From Rhodobacteraceae bacterium HLUCCA08 (GTDB lineage: Bacteria > Pseudomonadota > Alphaproteobacteria > Rhodobacterales > Rhodobacteraceae), in the NCBI GenBank assembly GCA_001314655.1, contig LJSF01000001.1, positions 62,001 through 126,000 of the forward strand: a DNA stretch of 64,000 bases, read 5' to 3'. Both the position numbers and the translations under genes were made by a program. The first letter of the stretch is position 1. Each line of letters begins with the position of its first letter. Shown here in pieces: positions 54,707 through 64,000 of this stretch. The notes below the pieces were generated by a model. That model searched no databases. It was not told where the DNA came from and saw only the letters and a program-made list of their open reading frames with translations.

Positions 54707-55632
54707 TGGCGGTGATCTATGACCGGGTCGCGCTGATCGGGCTGGGGCTGATCGCCTCGTCCATGGCCCATGCCATGCGCCGGGCCGGGGTGGCGGGCCA
54801 GATCGTCGGCACCGCGCGATCGGCCGAAACCCGGGCCGTGGCGGCCGAGCTGGGGTTCTGCGACCGGGTGGTCGAGACCGCGTCGGCGGCGGCCGAGGGC
54901 GCCGACCTGGTGGTGCTCTGCGTGCCGGTCGGGGCCATGGGCGCGCTGGCCAGGGACATCGCCCCGGTGCTGAAACCCGGCGCGACCGTCACCGATGTGG
55001 GGTCGGTCAAGCGCGCGGTGATCGAGGCCGTGGCGCCGCATATCCCCGTGGGCGTGCATTTCGTTCCCGCCCATCCCATGGCCGGCACCGAACAAAGCGG
55101 CCCCCGCTCGGGCTTTGCCGAATTGTTCGACAATCGCTGGACGCTGATCGTGCCCGAGGCTGCGGAGGCAGCGGCGGTGGACCGGCTGGAGGCGCTCTGG
55201 CATGCGCTGGGCGCCCATACCGAACGGATGGAGGTCGAACATCACGACCTGGTCTGCGCCATCGTCAGCCACATCCCGCACCTGATCGCCTATACGATGG
55301 TCGGCGTCGCCGACGATTTTCGTCGGGTGTCGGAACAGGAGGTGGTGAAATTCTCGGCCGGGGGGTTTCGCGATTTTACCCGGATCGCCGCCAGCGATCC
55401 CAGCATGTGGCGCGACGTGTTCCTGACCAACAAGGAAGCGACGCTCGAAATCCTGGGCCGCTTCACCGAAGAGCTTTTCGTGCTGCAGCGGGCGATCCGG
55501 CAGGGCGACGGCGATCACCTGTTCGACTATTTCACCCATACCCGCGCGATCCGGCGTGGCATCATCGAGGCCGGCCAGGATACCGACGCGCCCGATTTCG
55601 GCCGCAGCACCAAGCCCGGGTCGGGCCGGTGA
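54706..55632 (+). CDS. Prephenate/arogenate dehydrogenase
   Basis: 308 residues from ATG 54706, sharing a base with the hisC stop. NAD(P)-binding motif LIGLGLIASSMAHAMRRAG, then VTDVGSVKRAVIEAV and HFVPAHPMAGTEQSGP, which holds the catalytic-type His. TyrA-fold enzyme of tyrosine synthesis; prephenate versus arogenate use cannot be decided. The 4-bp overlap with the next gene (GTGA) extends the operon. Confidence 0.93.
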   Translation: MAVIYDRVALIGLGLIASSMAHAMRRAGVAGQIVGTARSAETRAVAAELGFCDRVVETASAAAEGADLVVLCVPVGAMGALARDIAPVLKPGATVTDVGSVKRAVIEAVAPHIPVGVHFVPAHPMAGTEQSGPRSGFAELFDNRWTLIVPEAAEAAAVDRLEALWHALGAHTERMEVEHHDLVCAIVSHIPHLIAYTMVGVADDFRRVSEQEVVKFSAGGFRDFTRIAASDPSMWRDVFLTNKEATLEILGRFTEELFVLQRAIRQGDGDHLFDYFTHTRAIRRGIIEAGQDTDAPDFGRSTKPGSGR

Positions 55633-56639
55633 GGGCGGCGCCGGTCGCGCTGGCGCTGCTGCTGGGCATCCTGGGCACCCTGTCTGTCACGCCCGCCATG
55701 GCCGAGGCACCCGCCCGGTCGCCGCGCCCCGAGGCGCGGGCGATGCCCGAGCCCGCGATCCGTCCGGTCGCGCGGCCCTTGCCGGTGCGCGCCGCGCCGC
55801 AGGAACTGCGCGCCGAGCGGCTGATGGCCGCCACCCGTTCGACCGACGCGATACCGGTCGAGGTCGGCCGGGCGCAATCGCTGCCGCTACTGGCGCCGCC
55901 GGTCGACCCCGACCCAAGGGCGGTCCTGCCGGGCATGACCACGCCCCGTCCGGTGGCGCGGCCCGTCGCCGCGCCGGTCGACCGGGTCGGCCCCGAGGCA
56001 GGGGCCGAGGCGCGGATGCCGCAGATCAGCCCCTTCGCGGTGCCCTTGTCGCTGCATCCGCAAGACCGGCCCGCGACGATCGAGGCGACCGCGCGTCGGA
56101 TCGACGAAGAGCGCGCCCGCGGCGCGATCTGCGATGACCTGGACATCCAGGGCGACCGGATCGGGGCCCATCCCGGCCCGGGGTCCTGTGGGGTCGACGC
56201 GGCGGTGCGGGTCCGCGCGGTGGCCGGTGTCCGGCTGTCGACGCCGGCGGTGATGGATTGCGCCACGGCGCGGGCGCTCAAGACCTGGGTCGAGCACGGC
56301 CTGCGCCCGGCGGTCGGCACTGCGGGCGGCGGCGCCGAGGCGATCCGCGTCATGGGGCATTATTCCTGCCGGCCGCGCAACAACCAGCCCGGCGCGCGGC
56401 TGTCGGAACATGCCTTCGGCCGGGCCATCGATGTCGGCGGCATCCGCCTGCGCGACGGGACCGAGATCAGCGTGCTGCGCGACTGGAACGGCAGCGCCCA
56501 CGGCGCGCGTCTGCGGCAGATGTGGCAGGCGGCCTGCGGGCCCTTCGGCACCGTGCTGGGGCCGAATGCCAATGCCGCCCATCGCGACCATTTCCATTTC
56601 GACACGGCCCGGTATCGGTCGGGGTCGTATTGCCGCTAG
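55629..56639 (+). CDS. Extensin-like C-terminal-domain protein
   Basis: 336 residues from GTG 55629. Signal peptide ALALLLGILGTLSVTPAMA; a long Pro/Ala/Arg-rich linker (to about residue 120) leads to the extensin-like C domain: CDDLDIQGDRIG, GSCGVDAAVRVRAV, NNQPGARLSEHAFGRAID and HRDHFHFDTARY. Similar domains resemble M15/VanY-type cores with His/Asp (SEHAFGRAIDV and HFHFD), so a peptidoglycan-related role is plausible. Stop shares CTAG with the convergent DUF2125 gene. Confidence 0.85.
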   Translation: MRAAPVALALLLGILGTLSVTPAMAEAPARSPRPEARAMPEPAIRPVARPLPVRAAPQELRAERLMAATRSTDAIPVEVGRAQSLPLLAPPVDPDPRAVLPGMTTPRPVARPVAAPVDRVGPEAGAEARMPQISPFAVPLSLHPQDRPATIEATARRIDEERARGAICDDLDIQGDRIGAHPGPGSCGVDAAVRVRAVAGVRLSTPAVMDCATARALKTWVEHGLRPAVGTAGGGAEAIRVMGHYSCRPRNNQPGARLSEHAFGRAIDVGGIRLRDGTEISVLRDWNGSAHGARLRQMWQAACGPFGTVLGPNANAAHRDHFHFDTARYRSGSYCR

Positions 56640-57631
56640 CGCAGCATCGGCGCGGCGCCGATGGGATACTCGCCCAGGGACAGGACGCCGTCGGACAGGC
56701 GCAATGTCACGGTCAGGGTCGTCGGATCGTCGGGGCTTTCGTCCAGGTTCCGGGCCATGGCCGAATAGGTCAGCACCGCGCCTTCGTTCAGCGCCCCGGC
56801 GGCACGGGCCAGGCCCAGCGCCTGTTCCCAGTTCGCCGCACTCAGCGCGATTTCGCCGCTGGCGCGGCCCTGGTCATCGGGCGCGATCTCTCCGCTGGCG
56901 CGGATCGCGATGTCGCCCCAGGTGAAGGCGATGTCGCGCAGCGTCGCCGCCTCGATCGCCGGCAGGCCCTGCGCCATGCCGTGCCGGTCGAGCGGCGCGG
57001 CAAAACGCGCGGCGCCGTCGATCCGAAGCTCGCGGATCAGCGGCGGCAGGGCGCCCTCCGGGTCAAGGCCCAGGCGGATGAACTCCGGCAGGACCACGCC
57101 CGTCGCCTCGGCATAGATGTCGTAGTCGTTCGCCTCTCCCCCGGCATCGCGCGCCGCCAGCAGCAGTCGGGCCATCGCCAGTTCCGCCCCCTCGGAGGTG
57201 CGCAGACGGGGGGTCTGGATGTCGAAGGTCGCCTCGGCGAAACTGAGCGCGGCATTGGGCCGGACCCGGGCCGAGGCGCGCATGTCGCTGCTGACCAGGG
57301 TCAGTTCGGTCGTGCCGACCATGATCCGCTGTTCCTCGGGAAACAGCACGATCACCTCGTTGGGTCGATAGGACAGGGCAAAGACCTGCAGCCAGGGCGC
57401 GGCCCAGGCCCAGCCGGCGGCGGGATCGGCCAGGGCCGGGTCGCGCAATGTGGTGTCGAAACGCGACGGAAAGCCGACCACCGACAGGTCGGAATAGGTC
57501 AGGTCCAGCGGGCCGGCATCGACCTGTTGCAGCGCCGCTTCGGCGCGGGCCGCGATCTGCGACCGGCCGACGAACCAGTATCCCGCGTAAAGCGCCGCCA
57601 GAACGGCGACCAGCCAGACCAGTTTGCGCAT
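56636..57631 (-). CDS. DUF2125-family protein
   Basis: 331 residues from ATG 57631. An N-terminal membrane anchor (KLVWLVAVLAALYAGYWF) is followed by the DUF2125 body: GFPSRFDTTLRDPAL, FEEPLGEV-like AALSFAEATFDIQTP and repeated beta strands. Proteins of this family are periplasmic or inner-membrane-anchored in alphaproteobacteria, function unknown. Convergent with the extensin-like gene. Confidence 0.85.
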   Translation of the reverse strand: MRKLVWLVAVLAALYAGYWFVGRSQIAARAEAALQQVDAGPLDLTYSDLSVVGFPSRFDTTLRDPALADPAAGWAWAAPWLQVFALSYRPNEVIVLFPEEQRIMVGTTELTLVSSDMRASARVRPNAALSFAEATFDIQTPRLRTSEGAELAMARLLLAARDAGGEANDYDIYAEATGVVLPEFIRLGLDPEGALPPLIRELRIDGAARFAAPLDRHGMAQGLPAIEAATLRDIAFTWGDIAIRASGEIAPDDQGRASGEIALSAANWEQALGLARAAGALNEGAVLTYSAMARNLDESPDDPTTLTVTLRLSDGVLSLGEYPIGAAPMLR

Positions 57632-57695
57632 CACCCGCGCCCCCTTTGCTTCGCTTCGCGCGCAGATGTATCAGGAGGCCGGAGGGAAGCGCCAG

Positions 57696-58229
57696 ATGAA
57701 CGACATGTGGGTCTTCGGCTATGGATCACTTCTTTGGCATCCGGGGTTCGATCCGGCCGAAGTGGTGACCGCGCGGCTGGACGATTACCACCGGTCGTTC
57801 TGCATGTTGTCGATCCATCACCGCGGCACCGAAGAGCGGCCCGGCCTGGTGCTGGCGCTGGACGCGATGCCCGGCGCGCGCTGCACCGGCGCCGCGCTGC
57901 GGGTCGCGCCGGGGCAGGAAGACGACGTGCTGGCCTATCTGCGTGACCGGGAGCTTGTCTCGGCCGCTTACCTGGAGGCGCATGTGCCGCTGGCCCTGCA
58001 GGACGGACGCGCGGTGCGGGCGCTGGCCTATGTGATCGATCCCGATCACCGGCAATATTGCCGTTTCGACCTGGAAACCCAGGCCCGGATGATCGCAATG
58101 GCCCATGGCGGGCGGGGGCCCAACACCGATTACCTGTTCAACACCGTGGCGCATCTGCAGGCGATGGGGATCGCGGATGCCGAACTGGACTGGCTGACCG
58201 AACGGGTTCGGGCGCTGGCCGCGACATGA
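57696..58229 (+). CDS. Gamma-glutamylcyclotransferase, ChaC-like
   Basis: 177 residues from ATG 57696 (GGAGGGAAG upstream). The YGSLLW motif (MWVFGYGSLLWHPGF) near the N-terminus and the conserved catalytic-type Glu region (RDRELVSAAYLEAHVPLALQ) fit the ChaC family, which degrades glutathione to 5-oxoproline and Cys-Gly. Bacterial specificity is not established here. Confidence 0.9.
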   Translation: MNDMWVFGYGSLLWHPGFDPAEVVTARLDDYHRSFCMLSIHHRGTEERPGLVLALDAMPGARCTGAALRVAPGQEDDVLAYLRDRELVSAAYLEAHVPLALQDGRAVRALAYVIDPDHRQYCRFDLETQARMIAMAHGGRGPNTDYLFNTVAHLQAMGIADAELDWLTERVRALAAT

Positions 58230-58290: not shown

Positions 58291-59517
58291 ATGACGGACA
58301 ACCGGGACGTCATGGACTTCAGCGCCGCCGAGCAGGCCAGCAAAACCCGCGCGTATTTCTCGCAGCCCGTCCGCCAGGTCACCTCGATGCTGATCGTGCT
58401 GGGGCTGGTCGGGGCCGGCGTCTGGCTGGCCTTTCCGCGGGTGGCGCCGGTCTTTGTCGCCAACCCCTATCTGAACGGCTTCATCTTCGCCGTGTTCCTG
58501 ATCGGCGTGATCTCGTGCTTCATGCAGGTCGCGCAGCTGATCCGTTCGGTCCGCTGGATCGAAGGCTTTGCCGGCGAACGGATCGGGCACGAACTGGTCA
58601 CGCCGCCGGGCCTGCTGACGCCGCTGGCGACGCTGTTGCGGGGCCGGGGCGCGCGGCGGCACCTGTCGCCGTCCTCGTCACGCTCGATCCTCGATTCCGT
58701 GGCGCAGCGGATCGACGAAGACCGCGAAATCACCCGCTACATCGTCAACACGCTGATTTTCCTGGGGCTTCTGGGCACGTTCTATGGCCTGGCCACCACC
58801 GTGCCGGCCCTGGTCGAGACGATCCGCTCGCTCACCCCGCAAGAGGGCGAGACCGGCCAGGACGTGTTCGCCCGCCTGCAGACGGGGCTCGAAGGCCAGC
58901 TGGGCGGGATGGGCGTGGCCTTTGCCTCGTCCCTGCTGGGGCTGGCCGGATCGCTGGTCGTGGGCCTGCTGGAATTGTTCGCGGGACATGGCCAGAACCG
59001 GTTCTACCGCGAGCTCGAGGAATGGCTGTCGACCATCACCCGGGTCGGCATGGCCGATGGCGAAGGCGGCGGCGAACATGGCGCGATCGCCGCGGTGATC
59101 GACCAGCTGGCCGAACAGATGGAGGGGTTGCAGGGCATCGTCATCCAGTCCGAGCAAAGCCGCGGCGCGGTCGATGCAAGGCTGGCCGCCCTGGCTGGCG
59201 CGGTCGAACACCTGGCCGCGCGGATGGACCGCGACGAGACGGCCGGCCAGCTGGCCCGGGTCGCCGAGGCGCAGGAGGCTCTGGTCCGGACCTTTGCCGA
59301 AAGCGGGATCGAGGGGCTGGACGCGGAAAGCCGGATGCGCCTGCGCTCGATCGATGTGGGGCTGATGCGGATCCTCGAGGAAATGGCCGCCGGCCGCCAG
59401 GAGGCCTTGCAGGAATTGCGCGCCGACATGGCGTCGCTGTCGCGCGCCTTGCGCCAGGGCCAGAACCGGGCCCGCAGGGCGCCGGGCGGCGAGGATCGCG
59501 ACGGGGGCGGAGGCTAG
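58291..59517 (+). CDS. MotA/TolQ/ExbB-family proton-channel protein
   Basis: 408 residues from ATG 58291; alternatives at 58267 and 58312. Four predicted helices: about residues 31-50, 63-88, 149-178 and 217-240 (positions from the longer frame). TM3 has NTLIFLGLLGTFYGLATTVPAL, and TM4 has GGMGVAFASSLLGLAGSLV, the conserved elements of ExbB/TolQ/MotA channels. The C-terminal third is helical and charged (DQLAEQMEGLQ, REALQELRADMASLSRALRQ). It is 3 bp from a MotB-like gene. No flagellar or Tol genes adjoin, so this is likely a stand-alone stator-like unit. Confidence 0.85.
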   Translation: MTDNRDVMDFSAAEQASKTRAYFSQPVRQVTSMLIVLGLVGAGVWLAFPRVAPVFVANPYLNGFIFAVFLIGVISCFMQVAQLIRSVRWIEGFAGERIGHELVTPPGLLTPLATLLRGRGARRHLSPSSSRSILDSVAQRIDEDREITRYIVNTLIFLGLLGTFYGLATTVPALVETIRSLTPQEGETGQDVFARLQTGLEGQLGGMGVAFASSLLGLAGSLVVGLLELFAGHGQNRFYRELEEWLSTITRVGMADGEGGGEHGAIAAVIDQLAEQMEGLQGIVIQSEQSRGAVDARLAALAGAVEHLAARMDRDETAGQLARVAEAQEALVRTFAESGIEGLDAESRMRLRSIDVGLMRILEEMAAGRQEALQELRADMASLSRALRQGQNRARRAPGGEDRDGGGG

Positions 59518-59520
59518 GCC

Positions 59521-61929
59521 ATGGCCCTCAGCCGCCGCACGGGAACCCGGTTCCAGGCCTCGATCTGGCCGGGCTTCGTCGATGCCATGACCGGCCTTCT
59601 GCTGGTGCTGATGTTCGTGCTGACCATCTTCATGGTGCTGCAATACACCTTGCGCGAAACCATCACCGGGCAGGAAAGCCGCCTGAGCCAGCTGTCGGCC
59701 GAGATCGCGAGCCTGTCCGAAGCGCTGGGCCTGGAACAGGACCGGTCCGCCGCGCTGGGCCAGCAGGTCGGCGCCCTGTCCGAGGATCTGGCCGATGCCG
59801 AGGGGCGGCTGGGCGCCCAGGCCCGCCTGATCGCCGACCTGACCGCCGAACGCGACGCGACCCAGGCCGCCCTGAGCGAGGCCGAAACACGGATCACCGG
59901 GTTCGAGGCGCAGGTGGCCGGGCTTCTGGCCCAGCGTGCCGACAACGAGGCCGCGATCGCCGGGCTGGAGGCCGAGCAAGAGCGGCTGATCGGCGAACAG
60001 GAGGCGCTCACCCTCGCCCTGGCCGAGGCGCGGGACGAGATCGACGCCGCGTCCGAGGCCGCCCGGCTGGCCGCGGCCCGGCGCGAGGCGCTGCAGACCC
60101 TGGTCGCCAACCTCGAAGGCGCGGCCGCGGTCAGTGCCGACCGGATCGCGGCGCTGGAGACCGATATCGCCGCCGGGACCGACCGGATCTCGGATCTGGA
60201 GGCGCAACGCCTGGCCGATGCCGCCGCCGCCCAGGCCCTGCGCGAACGGCTGCAGGAGGCCGATACGGAACTGACCGCGATGACCCTGGCGCTGGAGGAA
60301 CAGCGGCGCGAGGCCGAGGAAACCCTGACCCTGCTGGCCGCGGCCGAGGCGGCGCGCGACGGGCTGGAAGAAGACCTGGCCCTGGCCCTTTTGGCCCGGC
60401 AAGAGGCCGATGCGGCGCTGGCGCAGGCCCGGGACGACCTGACCCGGGCCGACGCGGAGGCGCAGGCGCGTCAGGCGGAGCTTGCGCAGGCCGACAGCCG
60501 GGCCGAGGATCTGAGCGCGCAATTGCAAGCCGCCCTGGCGGCGCGCGACGACGGCGAAGCGGCCCTGGCCGAGGCGCGCGCCGCGCTGGCGGCACAAGAC
60601 GATGCCGCGGCGGCGTTGCAGGGCCGCCTTGATGCAGCGCTTGCGGCCCGGGACACGGCCGAAGTCGCCCGTGCCGACGGCGAAACGGCCCTGGCCGAGG
60701 CCCGTGCCGCGCTGGCCGATCAGCAGGCGGAACGCGACGCGTTGCAGCGCCGCCTTCTCGCGGCCGTGACCCTGCAGGAGGAGGCCGAGGCCGCCCGCGC
60801 CGCGGCCGAGGCACGCAGCGCCGAACTGGATGCCCGGTTGTTGGCGGCGCTGGCCGATCGGGATGCCGTCCGTTCCGACCTGGAAGCGACCCGCACCGAT
60901 CTGGAGGCCGCCCGCGCCGCGCTGGACGAGGCACAGGCCGCCGGCGCCGACCTGGACGAACTGCGCCAGCGGATGGCCGCGGCCTTGCTGGCCCGGGACG
61001 AGGTGGCGCTGGAGCGTGACGCATTGCGCGACCGGCTGACCGCGGCGCTTCTGGCGCGCGACGCGGCCGCGGGGCAGGTCGACACGCTGGAAACCGAACT
61101 GGCCGATGCGGTCGCCGCCCTGGCCGATGTGCAGGCCAGCCTGGGCGGGCAGATGGATGCGGTCGACCGGCAGGCCGCGCTGCTGGACCAGGCCAATGCC
61201 GCCCTGGCCGCCGAAGAGGCAGAGAGCGCCGAGGCCCGGCGCGAAGTGGCGCTGCTCAATGAACAGGTGGCGCAGTTGCGGGCCGATGTCGCCCGGCTGC
61301 AGGGGCTCCTGGACCTGGCCGAGGCAGAGGACGTGGCGGCCAATGTGCGGATCGAGACCCTGACCGAGGATCTGAATGTCGCCATGGCGCGTACCCTGAT
61401 CGCCGAACGCCGCACCCGCGAACTGGAAGCGGCCGAACTGGCCCGGCTGGAGGCCGAGACCGAGCGGCTGGAACGCTATCGGTCGGATTTCCTGGGCCAG
61501 TTGCGCGACGTTCTGGAAGGGGTCGAGGGCGTGCGCATCGTGGGCGACCGCTTCGTCTTCAGTTCGGAGGTGCTGTTCGCGCCGGGCAGTGCGACCCTGT
61601 CGGCCCAGGGCCGGGCCGAGATCGCCAAGGTCGCCGGGATCATCCAGGGCGTCGCCGACGACATCCCGTCGCAGATCGACTGGATCCTGCGGATCGACGG
61701 CCATACCGACGACCTGCCGCTGTCCGGCTTCGGCCAATTCGCCAACAACTGGGAACTGAGCCAGGCGCGGGCGCTGTCGGTCGTGCTGTTCATGACCGAA
61801 GACCTGGGCATCCCGCCCGAACGGTTGTCGGCCAACGGGTTCGGCGAATTCCAGCCGGTGGCCACGGGCGATACCGAGGCCGCCCGGGCGCAGAACCGGC
61901 GGATCGAGCTGAAGCTGACCGAGCGCTGA
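59521..61929 (+). CDS. MotB/TolR-like stator protein with very long Ala-rich coiled coil and OmpA domain
   Basis: 802 residues. One N-terminal membrane helix contains WPGFVDAMTGLLLVLMFVL; Asp21 sits where MotB/TolR carry the proton-binding Asp. Residues about 45-650 are Ala/Leu/Glu/Arg-rich with heptad-like spacing and no Pro breaks; an L-x-A-A-L-x-A-R-D-type motif recurs at least six times between about residues 286 and 515. The C-terminal OmpA-like domain (GHTDDLPLSGF, NWELSQARALSVV, RAQNRRIELKL) has the residues that bind peptidoglycan. It pairs with the preceding ExbB-like gene. Such proteins are usually shorter; function unknown. Confidence 0.85.
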   Translation: MALSRRTGTRFQASIWPGFVDAMTGLLLVLMFVLTIFMVLQYTLRETITGQESRLSQLSAEIASLSEALGLEQDRSAALGQQVGALSEDLADAEGRLGAQARLIADLTAERDATQAALSEAETRITGFEAQVAGLLAQRADNEAAIAGLEAEQERLIGEQEALTLALAEARDEIDAASEAARLAAARREALQTLVANLEGAAAVSADRIAALETDIAAGTDRISDLEAQRLADAAAAQALRERLQEADTELTAMTLALEEQRREAEETLTLLAAAEAARDGLEEDLALALLARQEADAALAQARDDLTRADAEAQARQAELAQADSRAEDLSAQLQAALAARDDGEAALAEARAALAAQDDAAAALQGRLDAALAARDTAEVARADGETALAEARAALADQQAERDALQRRLLAAVTLQEEAEAARAAAEARSAELDARLLAALADRDAVRSDLEATRTDLEAARAALDEAQAAGADLDELRQRMAAALLARDEVALERDALRDRLTAALLARDAAAGQVDTLETELADAVAALADVQASLGGQMDAVDRQAALLDQANAALAAEEAESAEARREVALLNEQVAQLRADVARLQGLLDLAEAEDVAANVRIETLTEDLNVAMARTLIAERRTRELEAAELARLEAETERLERYRSDFLGQLRDVLEGVEGVRIVGDRFVFSSEVLFAPGSATLSAQGRAEIAKVAGIIQGVADDIPSQIDWILRIDGHTDDLPLSGFGQFANNWELSQARALSVVLFMTEDLGIPPERLSANGFGEFQPVATGDTEAARAQNRRIELKLTER

Positions 61930-61942
61930 GCCGGGCGCGCCG

Positions 61943-62914
61943 TCAATCCCGCCGGGTCGAGATCGCAACCGCGCCGCTGTCCTGGTCGATCAAGGCGCCA
62001 TCACGCAGGATCGCGACGGTCCCGACATAGGAGCCCTCGGGCCAGCCGCCCGGCGGCGCGCGGCGGCCGGCGGCGCGGAAATACTCGGCCTGCGCCCGGT
62101 CGAGCGTTTCGCGGTGCGCGTGCACCGGGGCGCCGTCCGGGCCGGTGATGGTCAGCACCACGACGTCACCGGGGCGGCTGCCATAGGCATGGGCGAAGAG
62201 GACCAGCGGCGCGTCGCTGTGCAGCTCCTCGCGTGCCGCGCGGCCGGCCTTGATCGTGTCATAGTCCGGCACGCCCGCGGCAAAGCCCCAGGACAGCAGC
62301 GCGCCGGGCGCAAGGGCAGGCGGATCGGACCAGAGCGTGTCCGTCGACACCGCGCCGCAGGTGATCGCGCCGTCCGGGTCGAACGGGTCCACCACCGCGC
62401 CGTCCCGGCGCACCGACAGGTGCAGATGCGGAAACTCGGTCCGGCCGGACAGGCCGATGTCGCCCAGGGGCTGGCCCAGACGCACCCGGTCGCCCGGCGC
62501 CACGAGGACCGAGCCGCGCGCCAGGTGGCAATACTGGGTTTCCCAGCCGTCGCCATGGTCGATCAGCACGCCGTTGCCGCAATCGCGGCCTGTTACGTCC
62601 GGCGCCCCCGGGCCGCCCTGGACGATATCCGGCATCCCGTCCCGGACCGCCCGCACGGTGCCGGGGGCCGCGGCCAGCACCGCGACGCCGGCGGCCAGGT
62701 CGGCGCGGGTGGGCAGGGAGATGTCGGTGCCCTTGTGCCCGTCATAGGTCAGCTGGCCACAGGCGAAGTCCGAGGCGCCGGGCCCCGGATCATGGTCGAC
62801 GAATTGCCGGATGTGGCAGGTATCGCCCGGCACGCAATCGACCGGAAATCCCAGGGTGATATCGCGGGCGGCGGCGTGCAGGGGCAGCAGCAGCAGGATC
62901 GGCAGGAGGCGCAT
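61943..62914 (-). CDS. Secreted M23 (LytM) family metallopeptidase
   Basis: 323 residues from ATG 62914. Signal peptide LLPILLLLPLHAAA. The LytM core has GHKGTDISLP (zinc His and Asp) and HLHLSVRRDG (catalytic/zinc His), with DCGNGVLIDHGDGWETQYCH between. Envelope peptidase likely to cut peptidoglycan cross-links, or a regulator if inactive. Convergent with the stator-like pair (13 bp) and downstream of clpA across a terminator. Confidence 0.88.
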   Translation of the reverse strand: MRLLPILLLLPLHAAARDITLGFPVDCVPGDTCHIRQFVDHDPGPGASDFACGQLTYDGHKGTDISLPTRADLAAGVAVLAAAPGTVRAVRDGMPDIVQGGPGAPDVTGRDCGNGVLIDHGDGWETQYCHLARGSVLVAPGDRVRLGQPLGDIGLSGRTEFPHLHLSVRRDGAVVDPFDPDGAITCGAVSTDTLWSDPPALAPGALLSWGFAAGVPDYDTIKAGRAAREELHSDAPLVLFAHAYGSRPGDVVVLTITGPDGAPVHAHRETLDRAQAEYFRAAGRRAPPGGWPEGSYVGTVAILRDGALIDQDSGAVAISTRRD

Positions 62915-62930
62915 CGGGGGCGTCCAGGCG

Positions 62931-62958
62931 AAAAGGCCGGACCCTTTCGGATCCGGCC
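62931..62958 (-). terminator. Rho-independent terminator after clpA
   Basis: On the minus strand, GGCCGGATCC, a GAAA tetraloop and GGGTCCGGCC (one wobble pair) are followed by TTTTCGCC. It begins 6 bp beyond the clpA stop and ends before the M23 gene start at 62914. Confidence 0.85.
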
Positions 62959-62964
62959 CCCTTG

Positions 62965-64000
62965 TCACTCGGCCGTCAGAAGCGGCGGCTTGTTGCCCGA
63001 CAGGCGCGGGTTCTGCGGCGGCTCGATCTGCAGATCCAGCGCGCCCTTCTTGATGCCGACCTTGACCAGGCCACCCTTGGCCAGCTTGCCGAACAGAAGC
63101 TCTTCGGCGAGCGGTTTCTTGATGTGTTCCTGGATCACGCGGCCCAGGGGGCGGGCGCCCATCTTGTCGTCATAGCCCTTGTCGGCCAGCCATTCGGCGG
63201 CTTTCGGGGTCAGTTCGATGCTGACATTGCGGTCCAGCAGCTGCGCCTCGAGCTGGAGGACAAACTTCTCGACCACCTGCAGGATCACCTCCTTGGGCAG
63301 CGGCTGGAACGAGATCACCGCATCCAGGCGGTTGCGGAATTCCGGCGTGAACTGGCGTTCGATCGCCGCCGTATCCTCGCCCTCGCGGCGGTCGCGGCCG
63401 AAACCGATCGCTTCCTTGGCCTGTTCGGAGGCGCCGGCATTCGAGGTCATGATCAGGATCACGTTGCGGAAATCCGTGGTCCGGCCGTTGTGATCGGTCA
63501 GCTGGCCGTGATCCATGACCTGCAGCAGGATGTTGTAGACATCCGGATGGGCCTTTTCGATTTCGTCCAGCAGCAGCACGCAATGCGGGTTCTGGTCGAT
63601 ACCGTCGGTCAGCAGACCGCCCTGATCGAAGCCGACATAGCCCGGCGGCGCGCCGATCAGGCGGCTGACGGCGTGTTTCTCCATGTATTCCGACATGTCG
63701 AAGCGCATCAATTCGACGCCCAGGGTATCGGCCAGCTGCTTGGCCACCTCGGTCTTGCCGACGCCGGTGGGGCCGGCGAACAGGTAGTTGCCGATCGGCT
63801 TTTCCGGTTCGCGCAACCCGGCGCGGGCCAGCTTGATGGCGCTGGACAGCGCCTCGATCGCCGCATCCTGGCCGAAGACCACGCGCTTGAGGCTGGCCTC
63901 CAGATCCTTGAGCACCTCGGCATCGTCCTTGGAGACGTTCTTCGGCGGGATCCGGGCGATCTTGGCCACCACGGCCTCGATCTCCTTGGCGCCGATGGTC
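62965..64000 (-). CDS. clpA: ATP-dependent Clp protease ATPase subunit ClpA, 3' part
   Basis: About 345 residues are visible; the frame continues past the window end, so the N-domain and first AAA module are missing. The second AAA+ module has Walker A GPTGVGKTEVAKQLA and Walker B VLLLDEIEKAHPD, with the D2 pattern GAPPGYVGFDQGG. The C-terminal region ends PPLLTAE. ClpA unfolds substrates for ClpP, which together with ClpS is outside the window. Confidence 0.95.
   Translation of the reverse strand, partial: TIGAKEIEAVVAKIARIPPKNVSKDDAEVLKDLEASLKRVVFGQDAAIEALSSAIKLARAGLREPEKPIGNYLFAGPTGVGKTEVAKQLADTLGVELMRFDMSEYMEKHAVSRLIGAPPGYVGFDQGGLLTDGIDQNPHCVLLLDEIEKAHPDVYNILLQVMDHGQLTDHNGRTTDFRNVILIMTSNAGASEQAKEAIGFGRDRREGEDTAAIERQFTPEFRNRLDAVISFQPLPKEVILQVVEKFVLQLEAQLLDRNVSIELTPKAAEWLADKGYDDKMGARPLGRVIQEHIKKPLAEELLFGKLAKGGLVKVGIKKGALDLQIEPPQNPRLSGNKPPLLTAE

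Follow-up and report, generated by a model that had tools for sequence, protein, structure and literature searches.

A TolQ/ExbB-type membrane protein and its coiled-coil, wall-binding partner in Alphaproteobacteria

In the studied relatives that share the TolQ/ExbB core, ion flow powers mechanical work or the activation of a partner. A 2025 survey divides these 5:2 ion motors into flagellar motors, in which the B subunit has a long linker and ends in an OmpA domain, and generic motors, in which the B subunit, such as ExbD or TolR, has a compact domain with no homology to OmpA (PMC12505986). Here we describe a pair of adjacent genes from Rhodobacteraceae bacterium HLUCCA08 that is an exception to this split: an ExbB/TolQ-type A subunit is combined with an OmpA-ended B subunit that has an exceptionally long linker. 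The pair lies in a 64,000-nucleotide stretch of contig LJSF01000001.1 (hereafter the window, whose first letter is position 1). In the list of open reading frames (ORFs), A (58291..59517, plus strand, 408 amino acids) and B (59521..61929, plus strand, 802 amino acids) lie on the same strand with 3 bp between them.

The pair shares features with several described systems. ExbB-ExbD and TolQ-TolR have the same core fold of A, the invariant Thr/Ser residues in transmembrane (TM) helices TM3 and TM4, and the membrane Asp of B; in contrast, the A described here crosses the membrane four times and continues into a long cytoplasmic tail, and in its B a very long coil leads to an OmpA domain. The closest whole architecture is that of ZorA-ZorB from Zorya, with a tailed A and a B that has both a TM Asp and an OmpA domain, but the coil of B is far longer here, ZorC, ZorD and ZorE are missing, and this is a conserved core pair rather than defence cargo. 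MotAB and PomAB share the OmpA end of B, whereas the pair described here has no flagellar context and its B has no Pro-containing linker. B itself belongs to a named family: it matches NCBIfam NF006542 with 753.2 bits against a cut-off of 388 (E=3e-226), and does not differ structurally from other PRK09039 proteins. The entry, entitled 'PRK09039.1-1 peptidoglycan -binding protein', is one of several related ones (NF006542-NF006546), which are silent on function, partner and mechanism. The only two papers found to contain the name PRK09039 deal with other topics. A preliminary description of the window needs to be amended in that the pair is not peculiar to this genome: the family is class-wide, and B was already annotated by NCBI. 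Within the searches that we made, what had not been described before is the class-wide pairing of B with an ExbB/TolQ/ZorA-type A as one system. We rate the pair as belonging with the 5:2 ion motors, inside a named but functionally blank protein family.

Architecture of the two subunits

Four TM segments are predicted from the sequence of A. Its AlphaFold2 model (mean pLDDT 83) has long TM3 and TM4 helices at residues 127-180 and 189-255, followed by a helical tail at 262-395 that is made of three helices (262-313, 316-337 and 345-395), in agreement with the tail that the preliminary description had proposed. By Foldseek, the nearest folds are TolQ, ExbB and ZorA chains, with probabilities near 1, TM-scores by target of at most 0.59 and E-values of 0.009 or weaker; the 50 best matches are all ExbB, TolQ or ZorA, with no MotA among them. 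Searched against solved structures, the sequence of A gave no relevant match, and its profile matched only generic coiled coils, on the tail. The TM3-TM4 core (residues 150-229; 58738..58977, plus strand) is strongly conserved: the string G159-L-L-G-T163-F-x-G-L in TM3, and F211, S214, G217 and L218 in TM4, are invariant in 86 homologues. T163 and S214 would be equivalent to the pore Thr residues of ExbB and TolQ. The Pfam model MotA_ExbB (PF01618) scores A at 15.7 bits (E 0.013), under its gathering score of 22.9 bits, and two A homologues likewise fall under this score, implying that the ExbB/TolQ signature noticed earlier is real, as the invariant columns and the fold indicate, but divergent enough to escape the standard model. 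The cytoplasmic tail (approximately residues 256-400; 59056..59490, plus strand) contains, close to its end, an R-x-IDV-x-L element that is conserved in the homologue consensus.

B starts with a TM helix (59566..59649, plus strand), in which the motif W-P-G-F-V-D (W16, P17, G18, F19, V20 and D21) is invariant in an alignment of 30 homologues; D21 is the presumed ion-carrying residue. The opposite end consists of a conserved YRSEFFGRLR...GDRFVF element and the OmpA domain (together 61477..61929, plus strand; Pfam match at residues 685-793, E=1.2e-15), in which G-H-T-D and N-W-x-L-S-x-x-R-A do not vary among homologues. D730 and R750 form the Asp/Arg pair typical of diaminopimelate binding, and by analogy with OmpA and MotB relatives the invariant residues of this domain probably bind diaminopimelate. 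The B family profile matches structures of MotS, MotB and PomB, down to 1.7e-26; the C-terminal piece of B alone had no match in the PDB. The membrane Asp of B (D21) and the hydroxyl residues in TM3 and TM4 of A (T163 and S214), as expected of a 5:2 ion motor, are thus invariant, and the original suggestion of a stator-like pair, with a membrane Asp and a C-terminal OmpA domain in B, was borne out.

In two genomes, a second B copy (L072:6998-8413 and L112:6737-8188) exists in addition to the normal pair. These copies have a cleavable-looking signal peptide instead of the TM helix, making them soluble periplasmic proteins of coil plus OmpA domain, without an A of their own.

The two ends of B are separated by 594 residues that are rich in Ala, Leu, Glu, Arg and Asp and contain no Pro, confirming the coil of about 600 residues that had been reported for the window. 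The coil (approximately residues 45-640; 59653..61440, plus strand) is defined by composition, by register and by the helices of an AlphaFold2 model of low confidence; its heptad periodicity stays in the register of the TM Asp over about 400 residues and is shifted thereafter. As a proxy for coil length we used the spacing between the TM Asp and the GDRF motif ahead of the OmpA domain in 97 loci. This spacing ranges from 166 to 957 residues with a median of 294 (one outlier has 2215); it is 166-770 (median 252) outside Rhodobacteraceae and 329-957 (median 514) inside them. The giant coil noted in the window is therefore the long end of a continuum. The outlier is a Rhodobacteraceae B (L171:5231-12190) whose coil comprises more than 2,000 residues of near-identical repeats of about 70 residues; it spans an assembly gap, seen as a run of X, so that its true length is uncertain.

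Coil lengths change in whole heptads. The spacing is divisible by 7 in 65 of the 97 loci and, when each distinct length is counted once, in 37 of 65 (binomial p=1.6e-15). Among periods from 3 to 15, a signal appeared only at 7 and its multiple 14, and the spacings that are off the multiple of 7 are mostly 3 or 4 modulo 7, matching in size a stammer or stutter of a coiled coil. Two controls, the tail of A and the Pro-rich linker encoded by a neighbouring OmpA-like gene, were flat. Since there is almost no length variation between the Asp and the start of the coil, it is in effect the two ends of the coil that are locked to each other. Prolines are nearly absent, with 3 in 27,828 coil residues versus 662 in 12,227 residues of the C-terminal parts, and of the two heptad core positions one holds Leu/Ile/Val and the second Leu/Ala, a pattern expected of a parallel dimer. 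The whole-heptad length changes, together with the near absence of Pro, lead us to conclude that the coil is a continuous rod. It has the unbroken heptads, the lack of Pro and the in-register length changes of a two-stranded coiled coil; some Rhodobacteraceae coils, including that of the window, do shift register.

A coiled coil rises by 0.15 nm per residue. If straight, the rods of the family would be roughly 15-130 nm long, and that of the window roughly 88 nm. A normal periplasm is far narrower than this, implying that the rod lies along the envelope or is folded back; the earlier idea that it spans a wide periplasm is less likely.

Distribution and conserved neighbours

B was found at E <=1e-40 in about 180 of 289 alphaproteobacterial genomes (hand count). 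Within the window's family, 117 of 120 genomes, and 116 of 119 genera, have A, mostly as a single match. The two genes occur together: of 80 loci sampled across about 75 alphaproteobacterial families, 73 have A immediately upstream of B. Five further genomes have an A that is unlinked to B, two of them only 0.7-1.0 Mb in size, and the last two loci are the extra B copies with a signal peptide. All B-bearing genomes that were checked carry A, whether adjacent or unlinked. The synteny survey that the preliminary description had put forward as a refuting test thus found the pair to be conserved. Of 60 genomes with B, 20 lack FliG, and 13 of 17 genomes without B have it, implying that the pair does not follow flagella. 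The pair is therefore core to much of the Alphaproteobacteria and is co-retained independently of flagella. Beyond the Alphaproteobacteria, a few further classes of the phylum have it (families f188, f200 and f213). In f188, which is not alphaproteobacterial, stop codons interrupt the A frame in all three genomes (L269, L271 and L272), with B open, reflecting either a decaying gene or a frameshift.

In most families the gene order is thiE - (Sel1) - efp - suhB - (OmpA-like) - A - B, and a divergent ABC exporter often follows B in this class-wide block. The OmpA-like gene, located upstream of A in 57 of 81 loci (for example L102:3969-5102), encodes an unnamed conserved secreted protein with a signal peptide, a Pro-rich linker and an OmpA-type domain in which the Asp of G-H-T-D is lost and R-R-x-S-L-x-R is kept. 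Coil length showed no clear trend with the presence of this gene (median B 424 and 392 amino acids). In Hyphomicrobiales the OmpA-like gene was beside the pair in none of 73 loci; a Sel1-repeat gene lies upstream in 53 of the 73, including those of Ensifer, Agrobacterium and Brucella. The Sel1 and OmpA-like neighbours are reminiscent of MotX and MotY, respectively, a likeness that may reflect no more than generic Sel1 and OmpA domains. One Sel1 protein, encoded upstream of suhB-A-B (L246:2187-3431), matches a MotX profile at 4e-12, maybe just through its Sel1 repeats. The preliminary description had stated that no flagellar, Tol-Pal, Ton or Zorya partner adjoins the pair; this is true of the window genome, but the OmpA-like and Sel1 proteins are likely partners elsewhere.

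The Hyphomicrobiales Sel1 gene is probably rgsF (SMc03995), judging from the same domains, a signal peptide and a locus tag near those of rgsB and rgsC. SMc03995 is essential (PMC5929573), and RgsF is a periplasmic protein at the growing pole and septum, whose depletion leads to shorter, rounded cells (PMC7327166). The literature on Sinorhizobium meliloti locus tags near rgsF contained nothing on the A/B pair itself.

A related pair appears to have been studied in Komagataeibacter hansenii, a species without flagella. Its 'motA/motB' genes are neighbours, encoding proteins of 348 and 321 amino acids with four TM segments and with one TM segment plus an OmpA domain, respectively; over-expression resulted in elongated, chained cells that spread faster, and fusions to GFP were polar (PMC6570709). 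The authors described them as motility genes, stated that the partner receiving the energy is unknown, and noticed neighbouring 'motAB' genes in several Alphaproteobacteria (PMC6570709). By protein lengths, topology and the BLAST hits that are named, these genes are probably orthologous to A and B.

A proposed motor for envelope growth and its alternatives

We propose that a pentamer of A around a dimer of B would form a 5:2-type, proton-driven motor, an A5B2 stoichiometry and a use of protons that we infer from the conserved ion-path residues and the fold. Beyond the membrane, the two B chains would wind into a parallel coiled coil that reaches the pair of OmpA domains almost or wholly without a hinge, and B would be fixed to the cell wall as a stiff strut or a drive shaft. 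Protons passing through the A/B interface, by way of D21 of B and T163 and S214 of A, would turn or strain A against the wall-anchored rod, and the cytoplasmic helical tail of A would hand the motion or a signal to a cytoplasmic partner. Alternatively, A might be held, in which case the rod would turn or pull on the wall. The Pro-free rod and its wall-binding end thus suggest that B is a fixed or a driven shaft, with either the tail of A or the wall receiving the work. This work would most likely be done in envelope growth or remodelling, at zones of peptidoglycan synthesis and in division, a role suggested by the gene neighbourhood, by retention of the pair in flagella-free genomes and by the K. 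hansenii phenotypes. The secreted OmpA-like protein in many lineages, and the periplasmic Sel1 protein (RgsF) in Hyphomicrobiales, may be helpers. We give the whole account, a proton-driven 5:2 motor that acts on peptidoglycan, or senses it, in envelope growth, a probability of about 0.5; our confidence is high for the architecture and much lower for the exact job.

If B is a rigid shaft, deletions of 7 residues from the coil should be tolerated and those of 3-4 residues should not. The pair is also a candidate for the source of the energy that drives growth of the envelope in Alphaproteobacteria. More tentatively, it may represent a further class of ion-driven motor for cell-wall growth, unstudied as a motor and core to most Alphaproteobacteria, in which the axle of an ExbB/TolQ-fold wheel is extended by a phase-locked coiled-coil shaft of lineage-specific length, from 15 to more than 100 nm, that is clamped to peptidoglycan and has periplasmic MotX/MotY-like accessories.

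Several observations weigh against the envelope-growth motor. Neither the OmpA-like nor the Sel1 gene adjoins the pair in Rhodobacteraceae, and our search of the window genome found no clear orthologue of the OmpA-like gene, its only matches being to BON-OmpA, YiaD-like and Pal-region proteins. The identification of the Sel1 gene as rgsF rests on domains and on closeness of locus tags, and the Rgs interaction partners that have been named do not include A or B (PMC7327166). The K. hansenii orthology is by description only, over-expression phenotypes are weak evidence, and GFP on the periplasmic end of B would not be expected to fluoresce readily. No experiment on the pair in Rhodobacteraceae was found in the literature. 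B is also missing from several large-genome alphaproteobacterial families and is therefore not universally essential. Exact multiples of 7 account for only 12 of 23 Rhodobacteraceae spacings, and that of the window (654, or 3 modulo 7) is not among them. Repeat units of 21 bp are visible in the coil DNA, and slippage of such units could be a partial source of whole-heptad changes; the heptad lengths thus indicate a continuous coil, without proving selection for phase. Finally, AlphaFold2 models B with low confidence (pLDDT 70) and divides the coil into long helices (19-211, 230-342, 349-474 and 479-624), with breaks near residues 220, 345, 476 and 630, implying that the long Rhodobacteraceae coils could fold back.

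Among the alternatives, we asked whether the pair might be an energiser of the Tol-Pal or Ton kind, in which proton flow drives a periplasmic effector distinct from the pair, be it the OmpA-like protein, TolB/Pal or an outer-membrane protein, and the coil of B serves as a TolA-like force transducer to the outer envelope. The TolQ/ExbB fold of A and the frequent presence of a secreted OmpA-like protein upstream of it are consistent with such a role. Nevertheless, we consider it unlikely: the wall-binding domain sits on B itself, and the window genome has its own tolQ-tolR-tolA on another contig and Ton-type loci elsewhere. Moreover, the OmpA-like gene was not found in Rhodobacteraceae, nor beside the pair in Hyphomicrobiales, which makes its product an improbable obligatory effector.

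The pair could instead be a mechanosensor or a gated ion leak, with the rod gauging the position or strain of the wall and either opening the A/B channel or signalling through the tail of A. A continuous coil that ends in a peptidoglycan-binding domain, and a conserved tail that lies in the cytoplasm, would both suit a sensor. We regard this as rather improbable: the studied relatives perform mechanical work or activate partners instead.

A spare or alternative stator for flagella or surface motility seems very unlikely. The MotB-type architecture of B, whose end-domain profile fits MotS, MotB and PomB best, and the increased spreading of K. hansenii on over-expression would be in its favour. 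The occurrence of FliG described above argues against it, as does the absence of MotA among the best structural matches of A; in addition, an ordinary MotA is encoded elsewhere in the window genome. We therefore rejected a flagellar role.

Scarcely any weight can be given to a Zorya-like anti-phage system, which we also rejected. Although PADLOC models assign A to ZorA1 (4.9e-9) and B to ZorB3 (1.9e-23), and ZorA likewise has a cytoplasmic tail, the NCBIfam ZorA model scores A at 11.7 against a 500-bit cut-off, no ZorC, ZorD or ZorE occurs among the six neighbours of the pair, and near-universal presence in the family with class-wide synteny is unlike the patchiness of defence cargo. That the coil is a mis-annotation or a composition artefact of GC-rich DNA, as the large antisense ORFs overlapping it might suggest, can be dismissed, given that the W-P-G-F-V-D and GDRF motifs of the TM and OmpA ends share one frame in all 97 loci, that the family match is so strong, and that the coil is heptad-locked and free of Pro.

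Other genes around the pair in Rhodobacteraceae

In Rhodobacteraceae the context of the pair is tyrC - extensin - DUF2125 - ChaC - A - B - (M23) - clpA. The convergent M23 peptidase gene (61943..62968, minus strand; Pfam M23 2.2e-18) is probably outside the system. The preliminary description had called it suggestive while allowing that it might be incidental; it is present in only 9 of the 15 Rhodobacteraceae loci that reach clpA, and we therefore favour the incidental reading and rejected the peptidase as a partner of A/B.

Upstream of A lies a gene for a ChaC gamma-glutamylcyclotransferase (57624..58229, plus strand; Pfam ChaC 1.8e-41), which we do not think is part of the system. As a neighbour of A, ChaC is specific to Rhodobacteraceae, where the two adjoin at 18 of 23 loci; elsewhere suhB or the OmpA-like gene takes that place. 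Further upstream, an Extensin-like-C protein (55407-56639; Pfam PF06904, 8.9e-50) is encoded in the window, and its gene neighbours many of the Rhodobacteraceae loci that have enough upstream sequence.

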